DNA from: Hygrocybe punicea
Lineage: Eukaryota; Basidiomycota; Agaricomycetes; Agaricales; Hygrophoraceae
Reading direction: 5' to 3'
NCBI GenBank assembly: GCA_963556145.1
Contig: OY744466.1
Location: 5,627,820-5,691,819 of the forward strand
Length of the DNA stretch: 64,000 bases
Positions 3,233 through 58,646 of the stretch are shown here, one piece after another. The translations under genes and the position numbers were made by a program. Every line of letters starts with the position of its first letter. The stretch's first letter is position 1. The notes beneath the pieces were generated by a model that did not search any database, was not told where the DNA came from, and saw nothing but the letters and a program-made list of their open reading frames with translations.

Positions 3233-3240
3233 ATATAAAA
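3233..3240 (+). promoter_or_regulatory. TATA box of the EF-Tu-repeat gene
   Basis: The sequence ATATAAAA lies 105 bp upstream of the proposed ATG at 3345. It is followed by a pyrimidine-rich stretch, a usual fungal core-promoter arrangement that would place transcription start at roughly 3265-3275. Confidence 0.55.
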
Positions 3241-3344: not shown

Positions 3345-4503
3345 ATGCTTCAAGTAGCCTGCACTATTCTTCTGACCCTCGCCACACTCTCCGCCGCTGC
3401 TCCAAGCGCCGTACGAGGATCGGCAACCAAGGCACGTTGGTCTGTTCTTTTCATTCGTCCATTGCCCTGTTAGCGTGGTTCATATGTTTTCTCACTTCTT
3501 CCCTCAGGGCGGACGCTCACAGTGGACAGCCCCGTCGTGACGTTATTCAATACGCTCGCAATCTCCCCAACCATTTTCGTGATAAGGCTTACGGCGACAT
3601 GGACAATGCCCCGGAAGAAAAGGAACGTGGTATAACAATTTCCCACCACAAGCACCGCCGCGATGAGGATGCGGGACATGGCCTCCAGAAGAGGACGAAG
3701 TTCGTCGGTGAGCTGTCTTCTCGTTCCCCCAGAGACACATGGCACTCATTATTGGCACCAGATCACGGAAAGACAATTCTGACGTCTCCAATAATCAAAG
3801 TCCCCTCCTCTCCCGGATCACTCACTTATTACGATCAAATCGACAATGCCCCGGAAGAAAAGGAACGTGGTATCACGATTTCCCACCACAAGCACCGCCG
3901 CAGTGAGGATGCGAGACAACGCCTCCACAGGAGGATGAAGTCCAAGTCCACTCCCAAACCTTCTGTAGGGACCACCGGTAAGTTGCCTCCCCGTTCCCCC
4001 AGAGATACTCACCATTGGCACCAGGCCACATAGATCACGGAAAGACGTCTCTCACGTCTTCGATAACCAAAGTCATCAATTCTCCCCGAAAACCCTCTTA
4101 TTACGATCAAATCGACAATGCCCCAGAAGAAAAGGAACGTGGTATCAAGATTTCCCACCACAAGCACCGCCGCAGTGAGGATGCGGGACCACGCCTCCAC
4201 AGGAGGACGGAGCCCAAGTCCACTCCCAAACCTTCTGTAAGAACTATAGGCACCATCGGTAAGCTGTCTTCTCGTTTTCCCAGAGACACATGGTACTCAC
4301 CATTGGTACCAGGCCACGTAGATCACGGAAAGACAACTCTGTCGTCTTCCATAACTAAAGTCTTATCCTTTAAATCCTTTAAATCACACATTACTCACGA
4401 TAAAATCGACAAAGCCCCAGAAGAAAAGAAACATGGTATAACGATAACGACTTCCCACCACGAGCACCCGCGCCGCCGCAGCGGACCCGACACCCTCCAT
4501 TGA
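3345..4503 (+). CDS. Signal-peptide protein built of repeated EF-Tu G1/G2 segments
   Basis: Proposed exons are 3345-3439, 3508-3707, 3762-3977, 4025-4258 and 4313-4503 (about 311 aa). The start was chosen because it opens a typical N-terminal hydrophobic leader ([19 protein letters not shown]). After splicing, each repeat rebuilds the start of a translation elongation factor Tu G domain: G1/P-loop [13 protein letters not shown] (best in unit 4), then SSITKVL, then the switch-I segment [17 protein letters not shown]. Repeats are joined by basic His/Arg linkers ([15 protein letters not shown]). No downstream EF-Tu parts (DCPGH, NKxD, domains 2 and 3) are present, so translation-factor activity is not expected. 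Removing the introns at 3708, 3978 and 4259 fixes all frame breaks and restores the EF-Tu motif, which strongly supports the model. The first exon junction (donor GTCTGT) is the weakest. Location is inferred as secretory; a mitochondrial leader is the alternative. Function unknown. Confidence 0.65.
3584..4503 (+). repeat. Tandem exon-intron repeat (EF-Tu G1/G2 unit), four copies
   Basis: Units run approximately 3584-3761 (G2 half only), 3762-4024, 4025-4312 and 4313-4503. Each full unit is about 265-290 bp and contains G1 exon sequence, the CCGGAAGAAAAGGAACG-type G2 block, a basic linker and then a 47-54 nt intron beginning GTRAGY and ending CACCAG or TACCAG. The three internal introns are near identical, so intron and exon were duplicated together. 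Confidence 0.75.
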
Positions 4504-4689
4504 GAAGCAGCATAAGAATATCTCAAAGCACTACGATCAGCCCCAATAGCGATTCAGGGTAATACTTGCGGTCGGGCATATTAGAGAGCGGACAAGTATG
4601 GCTCGTCTGTGCAGGACGTTGTAGATTAGATTGGAAAAAAACACACAGAGTTGCGATAATGCATGACCTTCAAGTTCGTCCTTGGCACA

Positions 4690-5880
4690 TTCCCCACTTG
4701 CTAGGTGAAAAAGTTCCTGAGCGTAAGTGCTGGAAGTCGGCTTTCCATTATGATCACCGACGTCAAGCAGGACGCCACCGAGATATGTCACGGTCGATCA
4801 CAACATCATCTTACCTAAAATCCCTCCACCTCGCGTTGACGGCATACCCCGAAGCACAGCAAAAAGCCCACAACGAAATTGACCGCGTTGTCGGCATTGA
4901 TAGGTTACCAAAGCTTGAGGATATCGACAAGCTCCCATATGTGCGAGCCATCATTAGAGAAGTGCGTGCAGAAAATCCTCTCTTCTTATCAATTGAAGTT
5001 GATCTGCCCTAAACGCAAGACTCAACGATGGAGACCTGCAGCTCCTCTCAGCCTTCCTCACGCCGCCACGGACGACGCTCATGTGAGTGTCGAAAGCCGG
5101 AAACACACTATTGGACTGTCTGACGGCAATGATGCAGTATCGTGGATATACGGTGCCTCGTGGCGCAACCATCTTGCTCAACGTCTGTATGTACCCATGA
5201 ATTTCTTGTTGGGCCACTCCCTTATGTTCGCTTCAAGGGGCAATTACTCACGACGAGACAATATACGAGCGACAATATACGAGCGACCCAACGAGTTCTG
5301 GCCAGATCGTTACATCCTCACCGAATTTGGAACTAGAGAAGATGTCGACACGAGCGACTTCAGACACACGTTGCCATATGGAAGCGGCAAGGTATGATCT
5401 ATCTCTCAGTATTTCCGGAATGCGATCTCATAATTATTATTCGCCAGCGGATCTGTCCCGGAATTCATCTCGCTGCAAATTCTGTGGTAGGCTAATATCG
5501 AATGCTGTGGAAGATCTCTTTTTGTACTGAACGCCAAATTTGTTCCTATAGGAATTTAACACGATGATGCTCATATGGGCTTTCGATTTCTTGAAAGCGA
5601 TTGACCCTACGACGAAACAAACGGATCGAAATAGATACGTCAAACTACACGGAGGTAAATTTATTTATCACAAATCGGTGGTAAATCGGCTCACCCCCAT
5701 CGCCAGGGTCTCTTCACCGCGCCGAACAAATTCCCTTGCGATATCAAGCCCCGAAGCAATCAGCACTCCTCGAGCACGCACTGCGGGACGCTGCGCCAAC
5801 ATATGAGCGGTTCGAAACAGAGCTTGAGTCGGATGATGCCAAATACGTGGCGTCTCTTGTTTGTGAGGTTTTAAGCATGG
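4690..5880 (+). pseudogene. Cytochrome P450, 5'-truncated (copy A)
   Basis: The C-terminal half of a fungal cytochrome P450 haem monooxygenase. Recognisable pieces in order: helix J/K region (YPEAQQKAHNEID, then LPKLEDIDKLPYVRAIIREV, about 4847-4967); the YRGYTVPRGATILLNV strand in another frame near 5135-5190; ERPNEFWPDRY with DTSDFRHTLPYGSGK (5278-5391); a 56-nt intron at 5392-5447; the haem-ligand motif RICPGIHLAANSV (5448-5486); an intron 5487-5551; NTMMLIWAFDF; and a last exon ending GLFTAPNKFPCDIKPRS and a stop near 5877. The haem Cys is intact. The I-helix oxygen-activation motif is not recognisable and the N-terminal half is absent, with frame breaks before 5270, so the gene is dead although its 3' exons look sound. 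Confidence 0.75.
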
Positions 5881-6554
5881 GATTAGCCCATCGCTGGCGC
5901 CGGCGAATGTATTCGGGATTTAGTTGGTATCTATAATAGATAGTTCCATCTGTCTTGATCCTGGATCATCATGTCGTGATGTTTTTCCGAACCCCGTAAT
6001 CGCTCAGAGTACAGATGGCAAATGAGCTCGGCTTTAGCCTTATAAGGAATAATAACACATGACTCGGAAATTTGCGAAGCTCGCAGTATAAATAGAAACT
6101 GACTTCCAGCTATGTTAAAAATGATTGACCAATTCCCACCCGACAATTTTAGTTGGCACAACCATATTTACTAGTACAGCAGTTCTCATTTGCGAGTTCA
6201 AGTTCATTGATTATTATGACACTGTGGAGCTCGTTCATGTATATATGAGTGAGGCAACTGGGTGGTTGCATTAGAACTAACACCCCCATTCCATGATGTA
6301 CAGTGAAGACAACTTTGGCAATCTTGCTCCCGCCAGGCCAGGTAGTATGGCAGCCTATCTCCTTGGTCTAGGCCCCATGCTGCCTGTCACAGTGAAAGTC
6401 ACTGAAAGACATCTGAATGATAAGATCCTTTTGCTCTTTGGGAATATGCCAGCGGTTGCCCATGGCATTATGGTTTTGGAGATTGCGCCAGAATCAGACA
6501 GTGTTGGGACACAAGAAATGTGGAGCCTTACATATTGGGACCTCATGTTTTTGG
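5254..6554. repeat. Segmental duplication, copy A
   Basis: This 1.3-kb block is repeated downstream at 7518-10678. It starts at the shared CGAGACAATATACGAGCG motif (which is itself doubled in both copies) and ends at CCTCATGTTTTTG. It spans the P450 3' exons, an intergenic part and the start of an unknown gene. It lacks the two insertions present in copy B, and so serves as the empty site for both. Confidence 0.85.
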
Positions 6555-7517: not shown

Positions 7518-9800
7518 CGAGACAATATACGAGCGACAATATACGAGCGACCCAACGAGTTCTGGCCAGATCGTTACATCCTCACCGAATTTGGAACTAG
7601 AGAAGGTGTCGACACGAGCGACTTCAGACACACGTTGCCATATGGCAGCGGCAAGGTATGATCTAACTCCCAGTATTCCCGGAATGCGATCTCATAATTA
7701 TTATTCGCCAGCGGATCTGTCCCGGAATGCATCTCGCTGCAAATTCTGTGGTAGGCTCATATCGAATGCTGTGGAAGATCTGTCTTTTTTTTACTGAACG
7801 CCAAATTTGCTCTGATAGGAATTTAACACGATGATGCTCATCTGGGCTTTCGATTTCTTTGAAAGCGATTGACCCTACGACGAAACAAACGGATCGAAAT
7901 AGATACGTCAAACTACACGGATGTTACGGATCGCTTCTGCAGCGGGCTCCGGCAACAATCAACTTAACTAAGAGGGGGGTTTCCAGGGGAGAAGACAGCA
8001 GTTTTCATTGTTGCTTATAGCTAAGACAACACTGCTAACAGGGGGGGTCAAGGTCTAGTGTCATTGCGAGCCGTGGGGGTTACTCAAAACAAGATGAGTC
8101 TGCCCCAAGAACCAGACTAAACGTAAAGAAAGGAAAAGAAGAAAAAGTCCGAACCAACAACAAGAACAGTATATATAGTGACTGGTCTTGAGGGGAGGTA
8201 AATAGAAATACAACCATGAAGCCATAATATGTCCAACTCTACCATGTATTCACCATGAGGCGTACATGAGGCGTCCTCATGTCGATGTTCTCGCGATCCA
8301 ACTGGAGGCCCGGGTGTCGTTGAGGATAGAAGAGGTCCGGATGACTCGGATGATTTGTCATCGGATCATGTGACATGCAGAATTGCCAATTTGGGGTCTA
8401 CACTTGCTGTAACGGGCAAGTGTGCAGTTTGGCAAGTGCATTGCACGGTCGGGTCGAAGATGGGTATCGTCCAGTGTGGGGTTGGTGATGAGAGTGTCTT
8501 GAGGTAGCGTGGATATAGTGGCAAGGTTGGTATGAAAGAAAATGAAGGAATGTATAGAGGAAAAAACCAACTAGGACAATGGGCTAGTCGAGGTCAGACA
8601 TGTGAACAGCATAAGCTGTACCGGATGATGATGTCTGTGTCAATGACGTATCGAGGGGCGGTGTCTTGTCCTGTGTGTGGAACAATGTGGTCCACCTGAT
8701 GTCGGTATTTGTCCAAGAAAGGGTATCATTGTAAACGAGTGTGGGAGGTATCAAGATTATGGATGGAAAAGGATAAATGAACGTGGGTCCAGGTTTCGAG
8801 TCATGGCATGAGTGACAAGCTGTGGGAACAAGTCGTCGGGTACTGCATTGAAGCGGTGTCGTGCGAACAATATACGATAGGGGTTGGTTCACTGTTTGGG
8901 AAGTCGTATGGTCTATGGTCGAAGTCCAAAAGAGTATGCTCCGGCGATGGTCGGATTAGAGAGAACAGTGAAATGTCTCGTGATTGGGGATTGTTCAGAG
9001 TTCGCATGCAGGTGAGGAATGTTGTCGGATCGTCAGGGAGGATAATGGTGGGCACAGGGTACGAATATGGCAACCAAATATCCGGGAATGGCAATTGTCA
9101 ATTACGTGTCGATATATTGTCGAGGTGGAAGTCAGAAGTATCAATGGTGGAAGGGTTTCGGTGCCGATGCCAAAGATAGATCATAACAAGGTAGAAACTG
9201 ATCAGGAAGGTGATGGCAATGCTGCCAATAACAATTACGGTAATGAGCTGTGTCGGGAGTACAGCCATTGTGAATCGGTTTGTCGTGGGATGAAGTCAAC
9301 AATATGTCAGGGCGAGGGAAAAGACAATAGCGATGATGTCCGTCGGCAAGGAGACTATTCGGGTACAGCAAGGTAACGTGGGGATGTGTCCATGGTCGGT
9401 CTGGATTGTTCTAGAAGAAGAAAGGATGAAAAGAGAACAAGAACAAGAATAAACAATGATGTCCAAAAGAAGACAAAAGGTAAAGGGGAACGAAAAAGGA
9501 AGGTATGGTAAAGTGGAATCGTCATCGTGGGTAGCAGAGTCGGAATCGGAGTTGCGGAGTTGAAAAATGTAACAACGGAGGTAAATTAATTTATCACAAA
9601 TCGGTGGTAAATCGGCTCCGATCGCCAGGGTCTCTTCACCGCGCCGAACAAATTCCCTTGCGATATCAAGCCCCGAAGCAATCAGCACTCCTCGAGCACG
9701 CACTGCGGGACGCTGCGCCAACATATGAGCGGTTCGAAACAGAGCTTGAGTCGGATGATGCCAAATACGTGGCGTCTCTTGTTTGAGACGTTTTAAGCAT
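7518..9800 (+). pseudogene. Cytochrome P450 3' exons (copy B), split by a solo LTR
   Basis: Same exons as copy A: ERPNEFWPDRY, DTSDFRHTLPYGSGK, intron, RICPGMHLAANSV, intron, NTMMLIWAFDF. An extra T in the TTTGATTTCTTTGAAAG stretch near 7855 shifts the frame (FFESD-stop instead of FLKAID). The gene is then interrupted at 7922-9574 by an LTR element and resumes at 9580 with the last intron and the CDIKPRS exon. Clearly non-functional. Confidence 0.75.
7922..9574. mobile_element. Solo LTR (1,653 bp), TSD ACGGA
   Basis: Begins TGTTAC and ends GTAACA (perfect 6-bp inverted ends, TG...CA), flanked by the 5-bp direct repeat ACGGA at 7917-7921 and 9575-9579. Copy A of the duplication (5640-5660) has a single ACGGA and no insertion, so the boundaries are exact. 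No internal terminal repeats or retroviral domains are visible; ORFs inside (102 aa minus, 142 aa minus, 130 aa plus) show no domain. A TATA-like TATATATA lies near 8170. Long for a fungal LTR; a non-autonomous TG...CA element is the alternative. Confidence 0.8.
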
Positions 9801-15457: not shown

Positions 15458-18420
15458 TAGTGTTGCCGCGACTCGACTAGTCAATAGTCGACTAGGAAAG
15501 TCGCGACTTCAACTAGACTATTCATTACAATTTCATATAGTTGTAGTCGGTAGTCACGACTACCGACTACAGTCAACTTCAGTCGCGGCTCAGTCGGGGT
15601 TCTCACTACAAAAATGCTAACGATCTATATATCCCCGTCATCTCCCTCACCCATGGCTGCAATCAGCACATCAAATGCTTGGTCCTTGTCCCCCTCAAAC
15701 AATGCACCCAACAAATCCACCTCCTCCTCCTCTACATCCATCATGCTGGCCTCATTGACTGCCCACCCAGTCATGAAGTCAAGTCGAGATTTCTTGAGGC
15801 CGAATTTGAGCATTTGAAGGGCCTCCATGAGGAGGGGATGGATGCGGTTGCGTTTGTGTGTGTCAGTCTCGGCACTGGATGAGAAAACACGCTCACTCGG
15901 GACAGATGACGCTTGAATAGGTAGATAGTCCATTGCAATAGAATAAATTGTCGGCAAGGTTGAATCGGACATGGACCAGAATTGAAGAAGGTTCGTCCCT
16001 GGCTTCGAGAGTGGGCCTTTGACATAGGACTCGTATTCTTCGTTGACCGTTGCCAACTCTCCTGATTCTTCGGCTGTTTCGAACATGTCGTCGAGGCCAT
16101 ATTGCGAGTCAAGTGTTTGCCATGCCTCAACGGAAGCGACGGCCGGCCTAGTGGGTAAGACTTCATCGGGGGCTACAGGTTTGGATTTGTCTCGGTACTG
16201 CTGCATGAGGTCAAGGAAGGTGGTTTCGGCTTTCTCGAACCAGTCTGCGGCCCAGTGTTTCTTGATCCAAGATGTGCGGACTGCCGGGTTGATGATCATT
16301 GCGACGATGTAGGCATCTGTTCGGTCCATCCGCTCATAGTATTTGAGCGCCCATTTCAGGCCTTCGTCGATGAATGGTTTGAGGCGGGGAATCTTCTCGG
16401 CGAGCTGCTCCCAAGACGACATGAACATTTCAAAGGCTGGGATGGAGCCAGACAGAATCGGTGTGGTTTCCTTCGACATTGTTTGTTGGGCTGCATGGGG
16501 CACAGCTAGGATTGCCTCGATGTCCTGAAGGGTATTCCACTCAACGTCTGTGAGACGGAGCGTTTGAAGATCCTTGTTGACAGGGCTTGCGAGGAAGGAA
16601 TCGATGGCAGGCCGCAAAATGCGAAGACGATTGATCATGTAGTAGATTGAATCCCACCTCGTCTTGACATCGCGAAGTAGTTGTAGGAGAGGGACCGTTA
16701 TCGCACGGCCATCCGGAAGTGTGAAGTGGGCCCTGCTGTTGCCCTCAATGATGATGGATTTGAAGTGCTCACGGCGTTGACCAGAAGATCGAACTTTGCG
16801 AACTACTACACGACCGAGTGCAATTGGGTCACGCTTGATGGCCTCCTCAAATGTTTGAGCACCAGGCTCATGCGGACGGTCCGCAGCAACGAAGGTCTCC
16901 ACGGGATCAACGAGTGCGGTGTTGGTGAAGCCTTCAACGAGGTGCTGGCAACATATGTTGATGATGTGCGCGAAGCACATGATCCGATTCTCAACGGCAC
17001 AGAAATCGATGTCGCGGGCCTTGAGGAGGCCTTCCAGCGCTACAACGAAGGTGTCATTGTTGCTCGCGTTGTCGAGGGTAAACCAACCAATGAGGGTTGT
17101 GATACCGGCACGGTCAAGCAGTTGCAGGATGATGGCGGCGAGGTTGGCGCCATCATGTTTGCCAGTGACGTTGTGAAACGCGATCAGTGCGGTCTTGAGT
17201 TCCAGCTGATTGCTGCGCTTGTTGCAGGCAATCCAATGGGCGGTAATGCAGAGGTATGAGCGAAGATTCTTGTCAGACCAGAGGTCCGCGGTAAAGCTAA
17301 CCTTCCCTACAGCGTCGGCGAGTTCGAGCCGCAGGGCCTTGAAGTGGGACTCCCAGGCTGCAATGATTGCCTCACGCAACTTGGTGCGGTGGGGGATGTC
17401 TTTGTCTTGAAGGTCGGAACGAAGGAGGAGGAGGAGATCTCGAAACTCCCGACACTCAATGACATTGATTGATTGATCATCCGCAACGACGAAGTTGATC
17501 AAAGCGTGAAGGAGGGCGGCACGAGTGAAGGTGGGACGGCCGGATGATGATATGTCTTGAAGGTTAGAGTCGAGGGTAGATTGTCTGAGGCTAGCAGTTT
17601 CCTCACGGATCTTCCGCTTCGGCAACTGCATCAACCAGCCATTCTCCTTGCAGGCTTTGACGTACTCGTCCTCATGGTACTTCTCGAGGTGGACACGGAG
17701 ATTGGGGTTAGCTGTGGCAGGGGCAAAGGTATAGTTGATGTTGAGGGCGAGGAACTTCGGATCGGCGGATCGGCGTGCCCTGTAGGTAGATAATTAGTGT
17801 ACAGAAATCAATAGAAAGGGGGAAGACACTCACTGACAGGCCTTACATATCGTTCGGATCTTCTCCTTGATACTCCCCTTCGTGAAGAAGTGCCAGATAT
17901 CGTGTGCAGCCGTTTTGAATCGGACCGAGCCTACGAGGTCGTTGACGGACGCGGGCTGACTGGGCCCAGTAGCGGCAGTAGCAGATGGGGCTGCTGACTC
18001 TGACGGGGCTGCTGACTCTGACAGGGCTGCTGACTGCGTAGGAGCGGGAGATGGTTGACGTTTCTTGGCCTTCTTCTTGGCACGCTCGGCCTTCTTCATC
18101 GCGGCTTGCTTTTTGGCACGCGTAAGGGCAGGGAGTTCAGATGATGAGGTAGCCAGAGATGAGGCATTTCCCGAGGACTTGGAGGACCCATCGTCGCTGT
18201 CCTTGCGACGACTTCGTTTGGTCATGTCACGAACGAGATTGTTGAAGAAAGAAAAAAAAAACGTGGTCCGGACTTAGCCGCCAGCTATCGACTTGACCGA
18301 ATCGGGTAGTCGTAGTCATAGTCGGTGTCATAGTCATAGTCGAGTCGGTTATCAACTCAGCTATGACCGACTACAACTATGACTACTAGTCGACTACTAG
18401 TCATAGTTGCGGTAACACTA
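15458..18420 (-). mobile_element. hAT transposon copy 1 (2,963 bp), intact
   Basis: Ends TAGTGTTGCCGC and GCGGTAACACTA (12-bp TIR, one mismatch). It is the reverse complement of the copy at 30439-33401 and appears identical wherever compared, including the whole coding region. Both subterminal regions (about 130 bp each) are packed with TAGTCG/CGACTA hexamers. The flanks do not show a clean 8-bp duplication: GGAATCCT on the left, TGAAGGAT on the right. A degenerate TGAAGGAA/TGAAGGAT pair exists if four extra bases on the left are allowed. Confidence 0.9.
15625..18225 (-). CDS. hAT family transposase (848 aa), copy 1
   Basis: Exons 18225-17834 and 17779-15625 are separated by a 54-nt GTGAGT...CTACAG intron. 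The N-terminus is basic, Ser/Lys-rich (MTKRSRRKDS...), a likely nuclear signal. It is followed by a BED-type zinc finger that spans the intron (CKAC ... HLEKYH). The catalytic hAT core shows the first Asp in SFTADLWSD (about residue 290), LDNASNNDTF, and CFAHIINICCQHL. The C-terminal hAT dimerisation region has PIQASSVPSERVFSSSAET. Length is normal for an autonomous hAT transposase and no stop or frameshift is present. It cuts and pastes the element by binding its subterminal repeats. Protein identical to the one encoded at 30634-33234. Confidence 0.92.
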
Positions 18421-30438: not shown

Positions 30439-33401
30439 TAGTGTTACCGCAACTATGACTAGTAGTCGACTAGTAGTCATAGTTGTAGTCGGTCATAGCT
30501 GAGTTGATAACCGACTCGACTATGACTATGACACCGACTATGACTACGACTACCCGATTCGGTCAAGTCGATAGCTGGCGGCTAAGTCCGGACCACGTTT
30601 TTTTTTTCTTTCTTCAACAATCTCGTTCGTGACATGACCAAACGAAGTCGTCGCAAGGACAGCGACGATGGGTCCTCCAAGTCCTCGGGAAATGCCTCAT
30701 CTCTGGCTACCTCATCATCTGAACTCCCTGCCCTTACGCGTGCCAAAAAGCAAGCCGCGATGAAGAAGGCCGAGCGTGCCAAGAAGAAGGCCAAGAAACG
30801 TCAACCATCTCCCGCTCCTACGCAGTCAGCAGCCCTGTCAGAGTCAGCAGCCCCGTCAGAGTCAGCAGCCCCATCTGCTACTGCCGCTACTGGGCCCAGT
30901 CAGCCCGCGTCCGTCAACGACCTCGTAGGCTCGGTCCGATTCAAAACGGCTGCACACGATATCTGGCACTTCTTCACGAAGGGGAGTATCAAGGAGAAGA
31001 TCCGAACGATATGTAAGGCCTGTCAGTGAGTGTCTTCCCCCTTTCTATTGATTTCTGTACACTAATTATCTACCTACAGGGCACGCCGATCCGCCGATCC
31101 GAAGTTCCTCGCCCTCAACATCAACTATACCTTTGCCCCTGCCACAGCTAACCCCAATCTCCGTGTCCACCTCGAGAAGTACCATGAGGACGAGTACGTC
31201 AAAGCCTGCAAGGAGAATGGCTGGTTGATGCAGTTGCCGAAGCGGAAGATCCGTGAGGAAACTGCTAGCCTCAGACAATCTACCCTCGACTCTAACCTTC
31301 AAGACATATCATCATCCGGCCGTCCCACCTTCACTCGTGCCGCCCTCCTTCACGCTTTGATCAACTTCGTCGTTGCGGATGATCAATCAATCAATGTCAT
31401 TGAGTGTCGGGAGTTTCGAGATCTCCTCCTCCTCCTTCGTTCCGACCTTCAAGACAAAGACATCCCCCACCGCACCAAGTTGCGTGAGGCAATCATTGCA
31501 GCCTGGGAGTCCCACTTCAAGGCCCTGCGGCTCGAACTCGCCGACGCTGTAGGGAAGGTTAGCTTTACCGCGGACCTCTGGTCTGACAAGAATCTTCGCT
31601 CATACCTCTGCATTACCGCCCATTGGATTGCCTGCAACAAGCGCAGCAATCAGCTGGAACTCAAGACCGCACTGATCGCGTTTCACAACGTCACTGGCAA
31701 ACATGATGGCGCCAACCTCGCCGCCATCATCCTGCAACTGCTTGACCGTGCCGGTATCACAACCCTCATTGGTTGGTTTACCCTCGACAACGCGAGCAAC
31801 AATGACACCTTCGTTGTAGCGCTGGAAGGCCTCCTCAAGGCCCGCGACATCGATTTCTGTGCCGTTGAGAATCGGATCATGTGCTTCGCGCACATCATCA
31901 ACATATGTTGCCAGCACCTCGTTGAAGGCTTCACCAACACCGCACTCGTTGATCCCGTGGAGACCTTCGTTGCTGCGGACCGTCCGCATGAGCCTGGTGC
32001 TCAAACATTTGAGGAGGCCATCAAGCGTGACCCAATTGCACTCGGTCGTGTAGTAGTTCGCAAAGTTCGATCTTCTGGTCAACGCCGTGAGCACTTCAAA
32101 TCCATCATCATTGAGGGCAACAGCAGGGCCCACTTCACACTTCCGGATGGCCGTGCGATAACGGTCCCTCTCCTACAACTACTTCGCGATGTCAAGACGA
32201 GGTGGGATTCAATCTACTACATGATCAATCGTCTTCGCATTTTGCGGCCTGCCATCGATTCCTTCCTCGCAAGCCCTGTCAACAAGGATCTTCAAACGCT
32301 CCGTCTCACAGACGTTGAGTGGAATACCCTTCAGGACATCGAGGCAATCCTAGCTGTGCCCCATGCAGCCCAACAAACAATGTCGAAGGAAACCACACCG
32401 ATTCTGTCTGGCTCCATCCCAGCCTTTGAAATGTTCATGTCGTCTTGGGAGCAGCTCGCCGAGAAGATTCCCCGCCTCAAACCATTCATCGACGAAGGCC
32501 TGAAATGGGCGCTCAAATACTATGAGCGGATGGACCGAACAGATGCCTACATCGTCGCAATGATCATCAACCCGGCAGTCCGCACATCTTGGATCAAGAA
32601 ACACTGGGCCGCAGACTGGTTCGAGAAAGCCGAAACCACCTTCCTTGACCTCATGCAGCAGTACCGAGACAAATCCAAACCTGTAGCCCCCGATGAAGTC
32701 TTACCCACTAGGCCGGCCGTCGCTTCCGTTGAGGCATGGCAAACACTTGACTCGCAATATGGCCTCGACGACATGTTCGAAACAGCCGAAGAATCAGGAG
32801 AGTTGGCAACGGTCAACGAAGAATACGAGTCCTATGTCAAAGGCCCACTCTCGAAGCCAGGGACGAACCTTCTTCAATTCTGGTCCATGTCCGATTCAAC
32901 CTTGCCGACAATTTATTCTATTGCAATGGACTATCTACCTATTCAAGCGTCATCTGTCCCGAGTGAGCGTGTTTTCTCATCCAGTGCCGAGACTGACACA
33001 CACAAACGCAACCGCATCCATCCCCTCCTCATGGAGGCCCTTCAAATGCTCAAATTCGGCCTCAAGAAATCTCGACTTGACTTCATGACTGGGTGGGCAG
33101 TCAATGAGGCCAGCATGATGGATGTAGAGGAGGAGGAGGTGGATTTGTTGGGTGCATTGTTTGAGGGGGACAAGGACCAAGCATTTGATGTGCTGATTGC
33201 AGCCATGGGTGAGGGAGATGACGGGGATATATAGATCGTTAGCATTTTTGTAGTGAGAACCCCGACTGAGCCGCGACTGAAGTTGACTGTAGTCGGTAGT
33301 CGTGACTACCGACTACAACTATATGAAATTGTAATGAATAGTCTAGTTGAAGTCGCGACTTTCCTAGTCGACTATTGACTAGTCGAGTCGCGGCAACACT
33401 A
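30439..33401 (+). mobile_element. hAT transposon copy 2 (2,963 bp), TSD GCAAAGTC
   Basis: Ends TAGTGTTACCGC and GCGGCAACACTA, with perfect 8-bp duplications GCAAAGTC at 30431-30438 and 33402-33409. It sits inside the Tc1 transposase. It is identical as far as I can see to copy 1 at 15458-18420 in opposite orientation, including subterminal TAGTCG arrays. Clearly a very recent transposition. Confidence 0.95.
30634..33234 (+). CDS. hAT family transposase (848 aa), copy 2
   Basis: Exons 30634-31025 and 31080-33234 (54-nt intron, donor GTGAGT, acceptor CTACAG, joined at a Gln codon). Domain order: basic Ser/Lys-rich leader, BED zinc finger (CKAC...HLEKYH), catalytic core (SFTADLWSD, LDNASNNDTF, CFAHIINICCQHL), C-terminal dimerisation region (SSVPSERVFSS). 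The start codon follows the TIR and TAGTCG array by about 60 bp, so promoter and transposase-binding sites overlap. Intact, and identical in protein to copy 1, so the family is probably still mobile. Confidence 0.93.
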
Positions 33402-45321: not shown

Positions 45322-47235
45322 GGAATTTTATCCTCTTCACCTGGAATATATGGATCAGACTTATTCCATGGAATTGCCTTGTGCACATTTTCTGGAACAT
45401 AATGCTTGCCTTTCCACAATCTATAGGTTTCAATCAGAGAATTTCTGCGATCACCAGTAACAGAACTTGAAAGCTTGCCTTTGTATCTCAATTTGACTAT
45501 TTCATTTAAAATTTCCAGCTCACGGAATTCTTGACGTAATGCCCCAGATGCACCACCTGTAATCTTTCTTGCATCAAATCCTTGTAAAATGACAGTACCA
45601 AGGGCGGATGCACTACGTGATAATGCAGTATAATATGATTGATGAGTTCGACTGTTATTTAGATCAACTGGATTATTAGGCCTTGTCTTTCCTTGTGAAG
45701 AATAATCAGTCATTGAAAAATTTGGAAGTACCTCTATCTGACTGCGTGATACTGTAATAGATGAGTCATCTGGTAGTGCACAGTCTACAGTAACACTTGT
45801 TCTTGTTAGTGGTACAACATTCTCAGGAAGTCCATTTAATTTCACAACTTGTGGAGGATTAAGTAGCATCACAAACAATGTGTCCAACACTCTCTGACCT
45901 TGCATACCTTTCGCTGATTGCCAGCCATGCACTATGCCTTCTTGGCCTCAGGTAATGCATAGCTCAGTTGCACTATTATTCCGGATCATGACAGGCATAC
46001 CAACACACAATGAAAGTTTTCCAGGAATACATTTTGAGTTGGAACTATGAGGTTGATTCCACAGAACTTCATGAACACTATCTGATAATGTGTGGCACTT
46101 GTGAGTTGTAGCTTGAGACTTTTTCTTTTTTCTATCTTTGGAAACTACTGAATCATCAGAATAAAAATCAACCAGAGGTTGACCAGTCTCTTTAGAAAAT
46201 CTCAACGACCCTAAGCGATTGATCTCATCTTTGTGAATATTTAAAGCAGTAATGATTGACACTTGTCTAAAGTTATCATGCTTCACTGATGTGCAACCAG
46301 GCAAATTACTTGATATTCGTGATCTCAAAAATACAATATCTTCAGCAGTACAAGCTTTATATCGCATATTTGTAAGAGCCTGTCTAAGTTGTGCATCTTC
46401 TGTTGTTTGAAGTCTTTGCCTCATGTTTTCCCGTAGTATTACTACAGTTGTAACCTGGTGCCACAATGACTTTCCAATAGCAGCTTCTTGATCTTGGTGG
46501 TTAGTTGAAGAACCTCCAACAGTTCTGCTGTAGAGAGAAGCATTTTCATGACCAATTGCAGGAGGCAACTGTGCAAAATCCCCTGCAAATATCATGTTTA
46601 ATCCACCCCAAGGCAACTCAGTTTCATTAAAAATCTTAGCCATCCTTGCACTAATCCTGTACATATCTCGACAAGACAACATTGAAACTTCATCAAAAAA
46701 TATATAATTAACACCCAAAAGTCGTGATCTTAATTGAGCAAGTTGTTTATTTGATATATGCTCATCAGTATTCTCATTTAAACCAAACATATAATGATAT
46801 GTAGATCCTGCCAGCAGAGCAGCAGCAGTTCCAGTAGGTGCCACAATAGCAAAACGATGAGCTTCATTTCTTGACTTGAAAAACTTTACTAATGCCTTCA
46901 AAACTTGAGTTTTACCAGTTCCACCCATACCACCAATATACATTTTCAATTGTTCAGAATTTGTATTGGATGCATGATGTGCAACTATGTAAAATGCCCT
47001 CTGTTGTTCTTCATTTAAACTAAAGTCTTTCACAATATTGTCTAGTGCTAACAAAGATTTTTTAGAATGTGAAATTTTTTCAAGATATGATTTATCAACA
47101 ACTTTAACTTGGTTATAGCTTGATGGTTGTGTTAGAGAATCACCATTAATATGACTTGGAAGATTTTCTGCACGATGTTCAAGTATATCTTGTCTACTCT
47201 TTTGTACAACAGCTTTCCATTGACTTCCAGATTGG
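45285..47235 (-). pseudogene. Helitron PIF1-like helicase part
   Basis: SF1 helicase motifs in order on the minus strand: SLNEEQQRAFYIV, Walker A MYIGGMGGTGKTQVLKAL, VAPTGTAAALLAG, Walker B YIFFDEVSMLS, IFAGDFAQLPP, LRENMRQ, and MTDYSSQGKTRPNNP with YYTALSRSASA (motifs V/VI). It unwinds DNA during rolling-circle transposition. A single in-frame TGA at 45948-45950 (ATELCIT-stop-GQEGIVHG) replaces an expected basic residue, consistent with CGA. The frame otherwise continues. Upstream it is cut by the DIRS element at 47236. Confidence 0.9.
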
Positions 47236-48113
47236 GCTTTGTAATTGCTCGTTACCATAGATGGGGGAGAATCCCGAGCGATGGCAAGTGTATTACGAGG
47301 ACAAATGTATTGAAAATCGAGCAGACGCTCGGGATCTCATTTTGTTATTTGGGAGAAGGAGATCGAAATGAAGGGGAGGTTCTATAGGTGAGAAACATAA
47401 ACGCAAGGAGGGTTCGGAATATGGAAGTGTTGAAGGGAAGAGAGAAAAGCGTTTTGTCGATCACATATAATGTATTTCGAGATCCTTGAGTGAGCAAATT
47501 GGAAGGACTTTGTCCGAAGAATCGAGGTTGAAGGGGACAAGCACCAAAAGCGTCACTAACACATGGATAGGATATGGGATGGTGGGTGGGTTGTAAAAAT
47601 GAATGAGACTGATACTGAGAAGGACAAGAGGAAAGAAGGGGAGAAAAGAGACGAAGAAGAATGAGAAAGGGAGAACGGGGGCTTCAGTATATAAGGTCGC
47701 TCGCATCAATCCTTCTCGCGAGCAATTAGTCTATTTGAATCCGCTTACAAAGCCCTAGCTCTACTTGCACTTGCAAGCTCGTGCGACGTCAAACCGCTAG
47801 CTTTGTAATTGCTCGTTACCATAGATGGGGGAGAATCCCGAGCGATGGCAAGTGTATTACGAGGACAAATGTATTGAAAATCGAGCAGACGCTCGGGATC
47901 TCATTTTGTTATTTGGGAGAAGGAGATCGAAATGAAGGGGAGGTTCTATAGGTGAGAAACATAAACGCAAGGAGGGTTCGGAATATGGAAGTGTTGAAGG
48001 GAAGAGAGAAAAGCGTTTTGTCGATCACATATAATGTATTTCGAGATCCTTGAGTGAGCAAATTGGAAGGACTTTGTCCGAAGAATCGAGGTTGAAGGGG
48101 ACAAGCACCAAAA
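47236..48113 (-). repeat. B1-A2-B2 terminal repeats of the DIRS element
   Basis: B2 47236-47549 and B1 47800-48113 are 314-bp direct repeats starting GCTTTGTAATTGCTCG and ending CACCAAAA. A2 (47590-47799) lies between them and matches A1 at the other end. The B1/A2 junction (CCGCTAGCTTTG) resembles a circle junction. Confidence 0.9.
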
Positions 48114-48205
48114 CGAGCGTAGCTCACAACTGTCGACTTCACCGAGACGACACCCAAACAAAGCGGAGCAAGAGAGAGAAGTGTGTTGTGGGGACAGGGG
48201 ACAAT

Positions 48206-49657
48206 TTATAGATGATATTTTTTACGGAAATGAGCCATGGAAGAAGTTAACAAAGCGAAACGTGAAGCGAAAAAGGATTGGGAGATGAAGGTCGGAAGAA
48301 TAGCGTCTATCTTACGCCAATAGTCCAAGAAAGCACGAGATTTCCATCTGCCCTGAGTGGCCACCACATCGGGGGGAGTGCCCCTCAATAGTAGTTCAGT
48401 AGCGCCGCCTATCCGGAAACCGTGCCCAAACACGTCCAGCAAACCTTCCTTTTTCCAAATCCCATTGACCCGGTCAAGGAACCAGTCACGAGTAAGCGGG
48501 GCCCAGCCACCATCGGCAGTTTCAAATGCGAAGAGGGGGGCGTCTGGCGGAACAGTCGAGTTGGCGCTGAGATGATGACGAAGGGCAGCAAGGGGGTTGG
48601 AGGGTTCTGATATTGAAGTGACTGAAATGTCTGCACCGAGCTCCTTCGTGGTCTTAGTCCAGGGTATGTGGAAGGTAGCGTGTTCGGGGCCAGCTCTGAC
48701 ACGGTCAAAGCGAATAGAAGTGCCTCGGGAGACGTGTTTGGTGGGGTTAAAGGTGCCAGGACTAGGTATCACCAGCTCGCCCAGTCTGCAGCAACACCAG
48801 AAGGCAATACAGGCACAAGCCCAAACCGCCGCGTCGAAGGCATTGGTCAAATCAAGGGATTTGTACAACGCGTGCATGTGTTCGACGGTGACGGGAGCAC
48901 GTTTGGGACGAACGGAGGAGGTCGGAACGAGCTTGGAAACACCTACCCGGACCTTCGCGAGCAGCTCGGATTCAGTGCCGTGCCATGGTGCACCATTGAA
49001 AAGATGCCAAAAGTGGAGGCCGGCGAGCCAGGAGTCGACACATGAACGCGAGACTTTGGAAGCACCCGTGGCTGCAAAGGCTGCAAGCAAAACTTCCGAG
49101 GCAGGCATGCGCTTAGCTTCAGGGACTCTCATATCATCGCAAAATTGTGTAAAACGAAGGAGGCCTGCGCCATAAACAGAACGTGTATTTTCATCTAATG
49201 AAAGAAGTAAAACTTGGAAGAGACGCGAAATGGCATGAGGGGGGAGCTCAGAACATAAAGAATCATGATAAGAGGAGGTAAAGGGCGTATGCCATGCGAG
49301 AAGACGATTGCTAGCAGTAACAAAAGGACGAAACGAGGAGGGGGCATACTGACAGCCTTTCTTGGGTTTTCTTGGTTTTTTATCGATTCGACCGCCTGAA
49401 GCCTGCGACACGCCCAGTCGAACACTCCGGACCAGCTGAGTCTGAAAGGGCGATGACAACGGGGTCACGTCGGCACAGGCCAACGCGTATGTAGAGATTG
49501 TGCTAAGCATGGAGGAAGTAATTGGAAATTTCGCATGGGAGCGATATGACAGTCGGGGACCGGAGAGACTTGGGGCCCAAAACGCCGCGTGAGATGGGGT
49601 CCGCCAGGTTCTCCTCAGATTGGACATAATAGAGGGAAAGTGTGAGATTGTTGTCAA
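48206..49657 (-). CDS. DIRS tyrosine recombinase
   Basis: Up to 483 aa; the true start may be an internal Met, since the first 52 residues overlap the RNase H frame. Catalytic residues of the lambda-integrase family: Arg in CCCRLGELV, the H-x-x-R box GHGFRIGGAT, GRWKSRAFLDYW with the nucleophilic Tyr. The N-terminal SAM-like DNA-binding region (SCVDSWLAGLHFWHLF, RAPVTVEHMHALY) is present. It inserts the circular cDNA into the genome. No breaks seen. Confidence 0.9.
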   Translation of the reverse strand: MTTISHFPSIMSNLRRTWRTPSHAAFWAPSLSGPRLSYRSHAKFPITSSMLSTISTYALACADVTPLSSPFQTQLVRSVRLGVSQASGGRIDKKPRKPKKGCQYAPSSFRPFVTASNRLLAWHTPFTSSYHDSLCSELPPHAISRLFQVLLLSLDENTRSVYGAGLLRFTQFCDDMRVPEAKRMPASEVLLAAFAATGASKVSRSCVDSWLAGLHFWHLFNGAPWHGTESELLAKVRVGVSKLVPTSSVRPKRAPVTVEHMHALYKSLDLTNAFDAAVWACACIAFWCCCRLGELVIPSPGTFNPTKHVSRGTSIRFDRVRAGPEHATFHIPWTKTTKELGADISVTSISEPSNPLAALRHHLSANSTVPPDAPLFAFETADGGWAPLTRDWFLDRVNGIWKKEGLLDVFGHGFRIGGATELLLRGTPPDVVATQGRWKSRAFLDYWRKIDAILPTFISQSFFASRFALLTSSMAHFRKKYHL

Positions 49658-51747
49658 CCAACAGGAGGTCCGTCCGGCGGACTGAGAGGTTTACCATGAA
49701 GTTTCGGCCACGGCCTTTGGTGAAGGCACCTATAACGCCCATGTTATCGCTGCGGATCAACACATCTGTGTTGCGGAAACCCCTCGCCTCAATAATGAGG
49801 CATACGAATTCGACTGCAGTGGCCTCGAGCCAACCGATGTCACGGCCGGGACCTTTCCAGTTGCCCTTCAGCTTCCAGGCATCCCATTCACCTTGTATGA
49901 GAACGCCAACCCCCCAACTGGAGGAAGCGTCTACCCAAATGTCGAGGTCAATCAGGGGGGCCTTGGGGGCCAGTGAGCGGGAGACGGAGGAGTCGAGAAG
50001 GAGGCTCCAATGCCGGAGATCGGAGATGACCGAAGCGGGGACCCAGCGGGGGGAGAACTTGTTGGTGAAGGTGGAGGAGAATGTGTAGAGGGAGGAAAGG
50101 TAGGAGCGGCCAGACGTATAAACAAAGGCTATGTGCGAGAGAGAGCCGCTGATGCTGAGAACTTCCTTCTCGGGCACGCGCTGGTTCGTGAAGAGATCGA
50201 GGAAGAGGTCGACTTTCTTCTTGAATTTTAAACGTTTAACGTCAGTCAGGGAAACAGATCGCCCGGGAATATCCCAAAGGAAGCCGACGTAGGAAACAGA
50301 AAAAGAAAAATCCTGGCCCTTAGTGGGGTGCCACGGGACACCGAGATCCTCAATACGGCCTTTCATGGAAGAAAGGTCGTAAGAGTAAATGTAGGGGGAT
50401 GAAACACCGTCACCACCAACGGGGAAACGAAAAGGGACGATGTCGTCGACCCATTTAATCATTGGGCCGATGCCCCGATGCACGCAGACGTCAAGGGTGG
50501 CATCGGCGACCTCACCTTGGAGGCCGCCAGCCGTGCATAATCCGAATATGATATTGTGGTCGATGTAAAAGGAGTCGGAGAGACTCACGACTAAAAAGGC
50601 TTTGTGAGGGGGCCAAACTGGAATGGTGCGGTATGCGGCGGAGATGTCCAGCGCCGCAGCTTGAGCCCCAGCGGGCGCACTGGCAATCTGACAGGGAGAT
50701 GCGTAAGGACAGAGTTCGTGGCTCAAGGGGGAGTTGGAACAGTAAAGGGGGGAACGAGCCGGCGCTCGAACGTAACCAAGCCAGCGCTTGATGTGAAGCA
50801 CAGAATGTGACGGAGAGGTTTGAAAAGAAAAGGAAGTCTGCCGCAAGCGCGACAGAGTAGAGAAAGTGGGGTGGAGGGGAAAAAGGGAGGGGGCGACTCA
50901 CTATATCCGCCATGACCTGGGCGGTGCCCCATCGCGTGGGGAAATCGTCGGAGTCAAGCTGGTCGTTGACGGAGGTGCGTGGAGAACCCTTGAAGGACAG
51001 GTTCCGACATATCCGTTTCTTGCCGGGCTTGTCTCCCTCTGCAGGAACAACATGCACCTGAATAGGGGAGGAGCGGAAGGGGCCGCCGAGGATGTTCTCG
51101 ACTTCCTCCCGCGTGTAGGGACCGGACATTCGACCCAAGGAGATTTCATCATTGAAGTAAGAAAGAATATCGTTCTGATGCTCGTATGCTGAGGCGTGAT
51201 TGGGAGGTGTATAAGTACAAGTTAATGGTTCGAGATCGCCAAGAGGGAAACCGTATCTGAGTTTATGCACGAGGTCCGGGTACTGATGAGAGAGATTAGC
51301 CTCGCGTAAGGAGGATTCAAAGGCTGCGTAAGAATAAGGCGTAACTATGCGATCTTTGATGAGATCAAGTGCAGGAACGGGAACTGGCGTGATGGTCGGT
51401 AAGGCCGCAAATGGAACAAGCATGATGGGAGGGATGGGGTTTGGAACATTTGCCGAAGATATTCCAGTTGATGCAGAGGAGCGAGCCGGAGAGACGAGCG
51501 GTAAAGGTCTTGTTGAACCATTTGGCCCAGACCTGCGAGCCCTTCTCTGTCGAGGTGTAAGTGCAAGTAGTGAATCGGTGACCGGGCCGTCCGCAAATGA
51601 GGCAAGTGACAGTGACGGTGGGACTGGCCTTGCCGGATGAAAAGGGCTTCGGATCCACTGAAACACCAGGGGAGGGGTATGGATGGGGACGGTCCCGAAG
51701 CTTGTCAGTACGTTCAGGGCCAGTAAGGCCTCGCCGTAAGCGATCAA
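49503..51747 (-). CDS. DIRS reverse transcriptase - RNase H
   Basis: Exons 51747-50902 and 50687-49503, joined by a 214-nt intron with donor GTGAGT and acceptor CTGTCAG (phase 0), giving up to 676 aa. The true start may be internal, because the 5' part overlaps gag in another frame. RT: KKRICRNLSFKGSPRTSVND, FPTRWGTAQVMADI joined to AGAQAAALDISAAYRTIPV, and the catalytic box IKWVDDIV. RNase H: DIWVDASSSWGVGV, WLEATAVEF, IRSDNMGVIGAF. Without the intron the RT core is broken, so splicing is required, unusual for an RNA-templated element. Confidence 0.85.
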
Positions 51748-52654
51748 TCTCCTCGCGCTGCTCTTCGCGGAAGACCTCAGCCTTGGTAACTTCGAATTTC
51801 ATCAGATAAAGCTCTTCGCTGAACTCCTTCGGATCGTAGGCGGCCTCTTGGCGCACGTCCTTGTCGAATTTTCTGATAGCTCGAAAATTCTGTGAAAAAT
51901 GGGCGGTGGAACAGAGGAAATGATAATGATTGTAGGAGCGTTGGTAAAATTTTTCGTCACCATATTGCCTCTGAAATTCCAGCAGGTTTTGATAAGCTTC
52001 ATGGAATTCGGGAATGAGTATCTCGTCTTCATTGGGAAATTGTGCAGGATCGACAATGGTGTATTTGACACCGGAGGGCAGCATGATCTTCTTCGTGGAA
52101 AGGGTAGCGGAATTTTTCCACAACAAATCTGTGGATGCAGAAGTGAACATCGAGAGGGGGATATGGAAACTAGTTTCAGCAAGTTTGACTATGAGGGGGT
52201 GAACTACAAAGGAGACAGAAGTGCGAGAAGGGTTCGGGCGTTCTTTGTCGGATGAGAAGATGATCTTCGGAGGGGATTGCTTCCCAGGGTCAGGACCGGT
52301 TTTGTCGGAGGTGTCGTCGCAGAGCAAGGCAAGTGCCTGACGAGAACGCGGAGTCATAGACATGATTGCTGCGAGAATAGAGTTCATGTCGGGAGTGCGA
52401 AGAGGGGTGGAAGGTCGGGAGGGAGGTGTCGTGTCGTCTCCGATATCCGCGCCAGCGACATCTAATAAGGGTTCGTCATCGTCAATAACGAGAAGGAAAT
52501 CGGGATCATCGCGCTGAGTCTGGCGTAAGGCGTTGCGAGACTTCCTAGCCTCATTCTCCCTGATGGTAGATTCGGCCGTATTTGACAAATCGGCGTTGAG
52601 GGAGGAGATATCCTTATCAGTAGCGGGGGGAGGAGGGCCATAAGTCATGGTCAT
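51365..52654 (-). CDS. DIRS Gag with two zinc knuckles
   Basis: Start taken at the ATG at 52654 (MTMTYGPPPPATDKD) because the sequence upstream to 52813 belongs to the A1 repeat and reads as a spurious hydrophobic leader. Middle region Asp/Glu-rich (LVIDDDEPLLD) and helical. C-terminal zinc knuckles CLICGRPGHRFTTC and CSICGLTDHHASSRSC. About 430 aa. It overlaps the RT frame by about 380 bp. It would bind element RNA. Confidence 0.75.
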   Translation of the reverse strand: MTMTYGPPPPATDKDISSLNADLSNTAESTIRENEARKSRNALRQTQRDDPDFLLVIDDDEPLLDVAGADIGDDTTPPSRPSTPLRTPDMNSILAAIMSMTPRSRQALALLCDDTSDKTGPDPGKQSPPKIIFSSDKERPNPSRTSVSFVVHPLIVKLAETSFHIPLSMFTSASTDLLWKNSATLSTKKIMLPSGVKYTIVDPAQFPNEDEILIPEFHEAYQNLLEFQRQYGDEKFYQRSYNHYHFLCSTAHFSQNFRAIRKFDKDVRQEAAYDPKEFSEELYLMKFEVTKAEVFREEQREEIDRLRRGLTGPERTDKLRDRPHPYPSPGVSVDPKPFSSGKASPTVTVTCLICGRPGHRFTTCTYTSTEKGSQVWAKWFNKTFTARLSGSLLCINWNIFGKCSKPHPSHHACSICGLTDHHASSRSCT

Positions 52655-52694
52655 GAGGAAGGTGGAAAACGAAAGACAAGTGGTGAACAGGAAA

Positions 52695-52903
52695 TTGTAA
52701 AAATGAATGAGACTGATACTGAGAAGGACAAGAGGAAAGAAGGGGAGAAAAGAGACGAAGAAGAATGAGAAAGGGAGAACGGGGGCTTCAGTATATAAGG
52801 TCGCTCGCATCAATCCTTCTCGCGAGCAATTAGTCTATTTGAATCCGCTTACAAAGCCCTAGCTCTACTTGCACTTGCAAGCTCGTGCGACGTCAAACCG
52901 CTA
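52695..52903 (-). repeat. A1 terminal repeat of the DIRS element
   Basis: Matches A2 (47590-47799) except for one G fewer in a G run near 52745. Adjoins Helitron sequence at 52904. Confidence 0.9.
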
Positions 52904-54058
52904 ATAATCTCTGGTGGTGGTGGCTGAGCAACTAGTGTCTCTATGGATAAAGGCTCTGCCCAACCTGTTTGATTCATTATTGATCGCATTGTTGCCATAT
53001 CAAGTTGACGTTTCTTCTCCCGCTTGCCAATACTCTTGAATTCATTGTCAAACTCTTCACTTAACTTTGCAGAGGCATCTTCATATGTGTGGTCACCATC
53101 CACTTGCTCCAAATCATCACCATGATCCAAAGTATGGTCAGAACCATCCATCCAACTAGGCAAGACAACAGAACCTTTACGAAGCTGAGCATGAAAGTCA
53201 TCACGAGCATCAAGACATTCATACTTTATATTAAAGTTGTTCATAAGTTCTCTTTGCCTCAAAGTAAAGTCATGAGATAAAAAGGACTCATCCCAAGATT
53301 GATCTTTTGTTTTCAAGTCATGTCCAGAGTGCCAAGGTCTAAACAATGCAAGCATGGTTGAGCAATAATATTCCCGATCACCTTGATCACATCGTGGTAA
53401 TGTTGCTCCTACAAAATTGGGAACTTTTATAAAGTTTTCATTTACACAGCATGTACCATGTGACTCATAGAGAGGATGACTGTCAAGAAATGTAAATAAC
53501 CCAACAGGTGAGGATTTATTTGTCATATTTGAAGATAGAATTTGTGTTGCATCATTACTACCTGGTTCCTCAATTTTCAAGTTATCTGTGGACACAGAAA
53601 TGTCATTGCAGTGATTGTCTATATCAGATAGAAATGTTTCATCTTCATGTGTAAAAGATGTATCATAAGTTTCACTCACATCCTTGACACTAGCAAGTTC
53701 TTCACTACAATTTTTATTCATTTTGGGTTTAGGAAGCTTCTCTCGAGAACATTGACTTATCCAATCATACAAGCACATATGCTCCAGTTCACAGGGGCGA
53801 TAGATATAATCATAAACAGGGGATAATCCAATAATACAACCTCTGCGTTTGATCAAGGCTACCTTTTCAACATCCTCTTTAGTTTCATCAGTTTCCCAGA
53901 TTTGTCTTGCCTTGTTGATGTAGCTTTGCCAATAGAAGGTAGAAAAATGATGATTTGTATAATGGTCAGGATTTCGCAAAAGGTACATACAGGCCATTGG
54001 TGCACCAATTTCCATCTTAGCACTGAGATTATTCACAATCTTGGTCATGAGTTTTCGT
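52904..54058 (-). pseudogene. Helitron central part (between Rep and helicase)
   Basis: Encodes the region after the Rep tyrosines: MTKIVNNLSAKMEIGAPMAC, YLLRNPDHYTNHHFSTFYW, and FVGATLPRCDQGDREYYC with MLALFRPWHSGHDLK, as in fungal Helitron helicases. Bounded by the LTR-like element at 54059 and the DIRS element at 52903. Frame open throughout. Confidence 0.85.
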
Positions 54059-58642: not shown

Positions 58643-58646
58643 ATAG

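Follow-up and report, generated by a model that had tools for sequence, protein, structure and literature searches.

A gene that strings together copies of a short segment of the elongation factor EF-Tu lies in the 64-kb window, the whole stretch of DNA analysed here (contig C8, 5627820-5691819), and is probably a lineage-specific chimera whose function is uncertain. The structure of this EF-Tu-repeat gene is real and odd, and its anatomy is clear. The best reading of the locus, to which we give close to an even chance from its sequence features, is that of a lineage-specific chimeric gene that would encode a secretory precursor resembling the KEX2-processed repeat proteins (KEPs), and a neutral relic is its close rival. 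The locus is a compact case of new-gene making, in which a phase-1 intron of a translation-factor gene would have been duplicated together with its flanks to give symmetric exons that can multiply in frame, and in which a leader exon would redirect the product. If the gene is expressed, a housekeeping exon is becoming a secreted repeat precursor; if it is not, the locus is a good example of a neutral relic that resembles a designed gene.

Gene model and protein anatomy

Translation of the spliced exons gives a single open frame with a predicted product of 311 aa and a predicted pI of 10.1. The features of the gene and of its immediate neighbour are the following:

3233..3239, plus strand: TATA-like box ATATAAA, read in the sequence and identical in the inverted copy (paralogue alignment)
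3345..3439, plus strand: exon 1, hydrophobic leader, a predicted signal peptide (translation and hydropathy)
3440..3507, plus strand: intron 1, phase 2, 68 nt, not a multiple of three, with an internal stop if retained
3508..3707, plus strand: exon 2, linker followed by unit 1, which lacks the P-loop and has just the switch-I part
3708..3761, plus strand: intron 2, phase 1, 54 nt, stop-free if retained
3762..3977, plus strand: exon 3, unit 2 and linker, a symmetric 1-1 exon of 216 nt
3978..4024, plus strand: intron 3, phase 1, 47 nt, not a multiple of three
4025..4258, plus strand: exon 4, unit 3 and linker, a symmetric 1-1 exon of 234 nt
4259..4312, plus strand: intron 4, phase 1, 54 nt, with the 3′ end GGTACCAG as in intron 2 of TUF1, the mitochondrial EF-Tu gene
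4313..4503, plus strand: exon 5, unit 4 and the C-terminus, ending in the stop codon TGA (4503)
4721..5998, plus strand: cytochrome P450 remnant, 5′-truncated and frame-broken, also at a third locus; a neighbour outside the gene (Pfam p450)

All four introns run from GT to AG and end in CAG, and each carries a CTCAY motif 13 nt from its 3′ end. The donors follow GTRAGY in three introns, with a weaker GTCTGT in intron 1. Removal of introns 1 and 3 is obligatory for an open frame; introns 2 and 4 are in frame and contain no stops, so it is the splice signals and the comparison with TUF1, rather than the frame, that argue for their removal. The coordinates and the four-intron splice model of the original prediction hold, and the spliced translation bears out its statement that removing 4259-4312 restores the EF-Tu stretch exactly.

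The secretory-looking leader that had been proposed is supported by hydropathy, from which we predict a signal peptide. In 12-residue averages the hydropathy reaches 2.32 at residue 4, and residues 4-15 form the sole strongly hydrophobic stretch, followed by SAAAPSA. Beyond residue 25 the maximum is 0.95, and by this measure no transmembrane segment follows the leader, a point on which KEP candidates are also examined.

Four units behind the leader carry the switch-I segment of EF-Tu, three of them also include the P-loop side, and the full GHxDHGKT motif (the G1 P-loop) is intact in two of the four. Unit 1 consists of the switch-I part alone; unit 2 reads KFVDHGKT and has lost the first P-loop glycine; units 3 and 4 read GHIDHGKT and GHVDHGKT, and in unit 3 a lysine replaces the switch-I threonine (GIKI, for GITI in EF-Tu). 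The Pfam profile GTP_EFTU matches four stretches of the product with a total E-value of 1.3e-33, the best of them covering profile positions 3-63 of 188, and the NCBIfam EF-Tu model TIGR00485 reaches 166.9 bits against a cut-off of 522.4. The EF-Tu origin and the tandem repeats of the original prediction are supported, whereas its picture of P-loop and switch-I in every unit applies intact to two of the four. The claim that no other part of EF-Tu is present was slightly off, since the linker preceding units 3 and 4 resembles the EF-Tu N-terminus (KPHMNIGTIG in TUF1). The linkers are otherwise rich in His, Arg and Lys. At the DNA level the repeats fall into families of 113 nt (87% and 84% identity to the reference copy), 213 nt (88%) and 63 nt (71-90%), and the repeat starts are spaced by 240, 272 and 294 nt. 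Aligned on their translations, the units differ in net length between common motifs by whole codons, with unit introns of 54, 47 and 54 nt.

The spliced product lacks G3 (DxxG), G4 (NKxD) and G5, and no family corresponding to EF-Tu domains II and III appears among its domain matches. As judged from this predicted sequence, the product is not a GTPase, because G3-G5 and domains II-III are missing. A nucleotide-binding repeat protein, which the original prediction had thought conceivable, could appeal to the two units that keep GHxDHGKT; with no G3-G5, and with one unit that lacks the P-loop, one that has lost its first glycine and one that has lost the switch-I threonine, it is highly improbable, and we rejected it on these grounds.

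Relation to the mitochondrial EF-Tu gene

We searched the 92.2-Mb genome, in 42 contigs, with the gene as DNA and found at least four matches. One is the gene itself and another an inverted copy about 36 kb from it (C8:5594840-5595698); two more are short and fall within a single locus on contig C3. The inverted copy is open, encodes 236 aa and has three units. It lacks a block of 272 nt of DNA (75 codons) that amounts to one unit, so that the repeat number, whose variation the original prediction suggested looking for among orthologues, varies between these paralogues. When the last two units served as a protein query, 11 matches came up, eight of them in the two repeat genes and one at the C3 locus; the two remaining matches, elsewhere, were weaker (E 6.5e-4 and 0.81). 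Residues 1-63 as a query matched four places, all within the two repeat genes.

The C3 locus is TUF1, with 14 exons and one open frame in a hand-made model. Its intron 2 splits GTIG^HVDHGKT in phase 1, at the same codon and in the same phase as introns 2-4 of the repeat gene. Since the TUF1 intron shares codon and phase with three repeat introns, the unit is most simply read as TUF1 intron 2 with the adjoining end of exon 2 and beginning of exon 3, duplicated in tandem to give symmetric exons. Under this model TUF1 itself would be the source gene. The sequence shows, in tandem, a segment answering to the exon-2 tail (..KPHxNIGTIG), intron 2 and the exon-3 head, which reaches from the P-loop to a little beyond switch I. 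A phase-1 intron of its own stands before every one of the three P-loop units, so that splicing joins the units in frame. Because both ends of a unit abut the same intron, the unit exons have the same phase on either side (1-1), and gain or loss of a unit causes no frameshift; the inverted copy has one unit fewer.

The last eight bases, GGTACCAG, are common to intron 4 and TUF1 intron 2, and TUF1 intron 2 aligns with introns 2, 3 and 4 modestly better than shuffles do (P values of 0.013, 0.011 and 0.026); against intron 3, one other TUF1 intron scores 11.0 where TUF1 intron 2 scores 12.5. We set aside intron likeness by itself as a weak argument for the origin, which is carried by intron position and phase. 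The repeat gene shares with TUF1 the P-loop-to-switch-I segment, the intron position and phase, and the N-terminal KPxxxIGTIG-like stretch; it differs in lacking G3-G5, domains II and III and the presequence, and in having a secretion-type leader and repeats. The letters MLQ.A are common to the leader and the TUF1 N-terminus (MLQLATRR).

Among the 120 TUF1 protein matches listed, the best is from Leucogyrophana mollusca (89% identity), with Hygrophoropsis and Suillus also high; within the same 120, the match P0125 is 94% identical over 92%. Organism names accompany 97 of the 120, and we take these to be Agaricomycetes. The genome analysed is accordingly that of an Agaricomycete, with a probable position near Boletales. 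One match, P0130 (Athelia sp. TMB), is a 606-aa EF-Tu that also carries PF01597, presumably the glycine-cleavage H family, and is perhaps a fusion of gene models.

Between the repeat units and TUF1, dS is 1.1-1.8, near saturation over 31 selected codons, which places the split far back at synonymous sites. It is also conceivable that the source of the segment was not the genome's own TUF1 but a tuf gene of a bacterium or of a distant eukaryote, as the unit residues look closer to bacterial or ancestral-type EF-Tu than to Agaricomycete TUF1. In a comparison with 10 TUF1 segments (the own TUF1 and nine of the 120 listed matches), units 1-3 have KERGI where all 10 segments have KARGI, units 2-3 have YDQID, found in none of the 10, and units 3-4 have KPSV where the segments have KPHM (8/10) or KPHL (2/10). 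The spliced protein scores 72 bits with its best full-product match, 61 with the best match of the TUF1 search and 57 with the own TUF1, the full-product rows being the best of thousands and hence biased upwards. Among the six PDB entries that match unit 4 best (60.6-67.4 bits) are ones named Ancestral Elogation Factor N153 and Consensus Elongation Factor. The best tree places 31 TUF1 rows on one side (100/99) and the units with the bacterial rows on the other, where rows were taken as bacterial (full-product matches) or fungal (TUF1 matches), many of them without an organism name. This tree holds 69 rows and 74 columns, samples 35 of the 91 distinct full-product-match segments and 30 of the 112 distinct TUF1-match segments, and leaves out unit 1 and the units of the inverted copy; its branches are long, and trees grouping the units with the TUF1 rows (AU p 0.43) or with the own TUF1 (p 0.35) are not rejected over the 74 columns. 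Against a foreign source stand the intron codon and phase, which are those of TUF1, and the last eight intron bases, equal in one unit. We consider such an acquisition quite improbable.

Dibasic processing and protein relatives

The leader exon in front would direct the product into the secretory pathway, and the internal repeats are separated by dibasic sites. According to the parts of PMC6339444 consulted, the working criteria for KEPs include a signal peptide, similar repeat fragments and the repeat share of length. An in-silico digest at KR and RR yields pieces of 23, 41, 11, 51, 11, 64, 11, 73 and 7 aa, assuming that the leader is cut after residue 19 and with fragment similarity judged by eye. 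These comprise four long EF-Tu-type and three short SEDA/DEDA fragments, where the KEP criterion asks for a minimum of three that resemble one another and are bounded by KR/RR, and the long ones (41, 51, 64 and 73 of 311 aa) surpass the threshold of at least 15% of length for repeats. The inverted copy gives three long fragments, the first fused to a short one. Kex2 would cut at KHRR, HRR and QKR, freeing peptides of 41-73 aa that carry the EF-Tu segment and 11-aa peptides of the SEDA type, and the freed peptides might act on other organisms or in self-signalling, both being possible.

Dibasic clusters do not clearly exceed what composition alone would produce: the gene has 8 where 4.9 are expected (P 0.067), and the inverted copy 5 where 3.3 are expected (P 0.20). 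The homologous TUF1 segment contains no KR, RR or KK, so the sites are younger than the split, provided that TUF1 is the source. A Kex2-type host protease is indicated by its P domain: the proprotein-convertase profile PF01483 scores above its cut-off at two places on contig C2, covering profile positions 1-57 of 86 in each. The two matches lie about 7 kb apart within C2:6478715-6486062, perhaps as a tandem duplicate of the Kex2 gene, and in each a single in-frame TGA occurs, possibly because an intron is being read through.

With the KEPs, as described in the portions of PMC6339444 and PMC9769878 consulted, the predicted precursor shares a leader, internal repeats with KR/RR between them, three or more fragments that resemble one another, a repeat share well above 15% of length and a repeat number that varies between copies. 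It differs from them in that the long fragments (41-73 aa) are related to a housekeeping translation factor, in having introns between the units, and in that its processing is a prediction. The sections of PMC9769878 consulted report that KEP peptides are processed in Agaricomycetes and that knocking out kep genes in Coprinopsis cinerea gave no phenotype. The terms 'Elongation factor' and 'EF-Tu' are absent from the main text of PMC9769878, and 'elongation factor' from PMC6339444; among the papers listed by literature searches, titles and the beginnings of abstracts likewise showed no secreted EF-Tu-repeat protein. We regard as unlikely the further proposal, akin to the extracellular mimic that the original prediction had thought conceivable, that exported, processed copies of the EF-Tu N-terminal/P-loop/switch-I stretch stand in for EF-Tu at host receptors that recognise EF-Tu or on neighbouring bacteria. 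If it were true, an exon of a housekeeping translation factor would have become a peptide that is secreted in multiple copies.

The full-product protein search scored 7999 proteins, and all 120 listed carry GTP_EFTU. These best 120 of the 7999 are single-copy EF-Tus or pieces of them, and neither they nor the 120 listed TUF1 matches contain a second DHGK[TS] or APEE, in a screen that a repeat protein below the 120th rank or outside the 7999 would escape. With residues 1-63 as query the protein library yielded 21 candidates, none of which matched at E 10. The library is rich in Agaricomycete EF-Tus and so able to show fungal relatives. The original prediction had named a fragmentary nuclear copy of the mitochondrial tuf gene with no conserved relatives as the finding that would count against it. 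Half of this was found: the locus is tuf-derived and has no conserved relatives among the matches listed, but its frame is open in both copies.

Paralogue divergence and genomic surroundings

The absence of repeat relatives among the matches listed also favours the closest competitor of the precursor reading, a non-functional relic in which a tandemly duplicated TUF1-like fragment, lying beside a P450 pseudogene where the DNA is rearranged and rich in transposons, has stayed open by luck. Substitutions between the two copies point the same way. The 19 coding changes divide into 4.2 synonymous and 14.8 nonsynonymous (dS 0.026, dN 0.028), and an omega of 0.3 is rejected (P 0.008), one of 0.5 not (P 0.096). 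The dN/dS of about 1 gives no sign of residue-level purifying selection, as under no selection. Differences amount to 19/711 sites in coding sequence, 2/176 in introns, 10/520 in trimmed flanks and 14/737 in the P450 remnant; the rates of coding sequence, flanks and P450 remnant are alike, so the substitutions show no constraint. Full units compared in pairs give omega values of 0.57-1.27, near 1, with 0 of 15 pairs significant. A dN/dS of about 0.3 between units from 31 hand-picked conserved codons, taken as purifying selection on the P-loop and switch-I blocks, was not upheld by the full units.

An apparent slowing of the gene relative to its flanks (Fisher P 4e-5) was withdrawn, as the flank counts had included badly aligned ends. 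The segment common to the two copies has its left edge at about 3016, and trimming dropped window positions below 3060 and above 4740 (123 aligned sites, 33 differences), after which gene body and flanks do not differ in substitution rate (P 0.71). With this, the idea of gene conversion built on a slower gene body was dropped, and our assessment moved slightly away from the precursor, from an even chance to just under it, and as slightly toward the relic, which was and is the less probable of the two.

The reading frame behaves otherwise, and looks to have been kept between the copies. Both have the frame, the leader exon and the splice sites together with their branch motifs, which speaks against a relic. 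Of 11 short indels between the copies, five lie in the flanks, one in intron 1 and five in the P450 remnant, where some break the frame; the 711 aligned coding sites contain none (P 0.012, from their proportion of all sites), and the sole coding gap is one whole unit. Neutral simulation at 2.7% divergence left the frame stop-free in 53% of draws, so that it says little in itself that both copies have stayed open after they were duplicated. An open frame over the longer time in which the units diverged from one another is more informative: dS among the units of the window gene is 0.14-0.35, a range in which a stop-free neutral frame is uncommon, with 311 codons remaining stop-free in 9.5%, 3.6% and 1.8% of draws at divergences of 0.10, 0.15 and 0.20, figures that are optimistic, as those for frame are, because the gene was chosen for being open. 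Selection, if any, would act on the reading frame and splice sites and not on residues. Weighing both sides, we hold a relic to be quite possible, if somewhat doubtful.

The neighbourhood suits a relic as well. A truncated P450 and a repeat with at least 25 further occurrences adjoin the gene, and further along the window come hAT, Gypsy-like and Helitron-like frames (Pfam scans of 20 of the 40 listed frames). The P450 remnant stands 3′ of the EF-Tu-repeat gene in both copies, and its Pfam p450 match, on the frame 4563-5009, covers profile positions 277-331. A third P450 copy (C8:5614256-5615553) has an extra upstream p450 piece at 18.7 bits, below the 22.8 cut-off, and a shared piece at 60.8; genome DNA search and alignment found no EF-Tu units there. 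Upstream of the gene, the repeat at 2129-2764, of about 635 nt, occurs at full length at no fewer than 25 other genome places with 97-98% identity (40 of 105 candidates scored). Its inverted arms (2129-2346 and 2557-2763) match at 92%, and it is probably a recently active non-autonomous DNA transposon.

A chimera made by a transposon, in which a Helitron or similar element captured TUF1 exons that became fused to a leader exon, expressed or not, could draw on the Helitron-like and PIF1-like helicase frames in the same 64-kb window. The Helitron-like frame is however about 50 kb from the gene, and only two copies of the gene were found, both inside larger duplicated blocks that include the P450 remnant, which makes this origin improbable. 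Captured or duplicated gene fragments, such as Helitron captures and exon-shuffling chimeras, resemble our locus in that a gene piece with its intron stands in a new, transposon-rich context. They differ in that tandem amplification with the frame kept is seen here.

Several further features of the window were noted. The PIF1-like helicase and Helitron_like_N frames at 45951-58663 on the minus strand form a Helitron-type element. Two open frames of 722 codons, equal in length and opposite in orientation, lie at 15628-17793 (minus) and 31066-33231 (plus); the first matches hAT dimerisation, and beside both are 18-nt tandem repeats that appear to be reverse-complementary. At 1274-2053 a 63-nt tandem repeat of 12.4 copies (92% matches) lies within a 298-aa open frame on the minus strand. 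The P450 remnant contains a 14-nt direct duplication, at two places in the window (5257-5284 and 7521-7551), which is single in two other aligned copies. Beside the P450 junction, at least 24 nt (window 4763-4786) are identical but inverted between the two copies.
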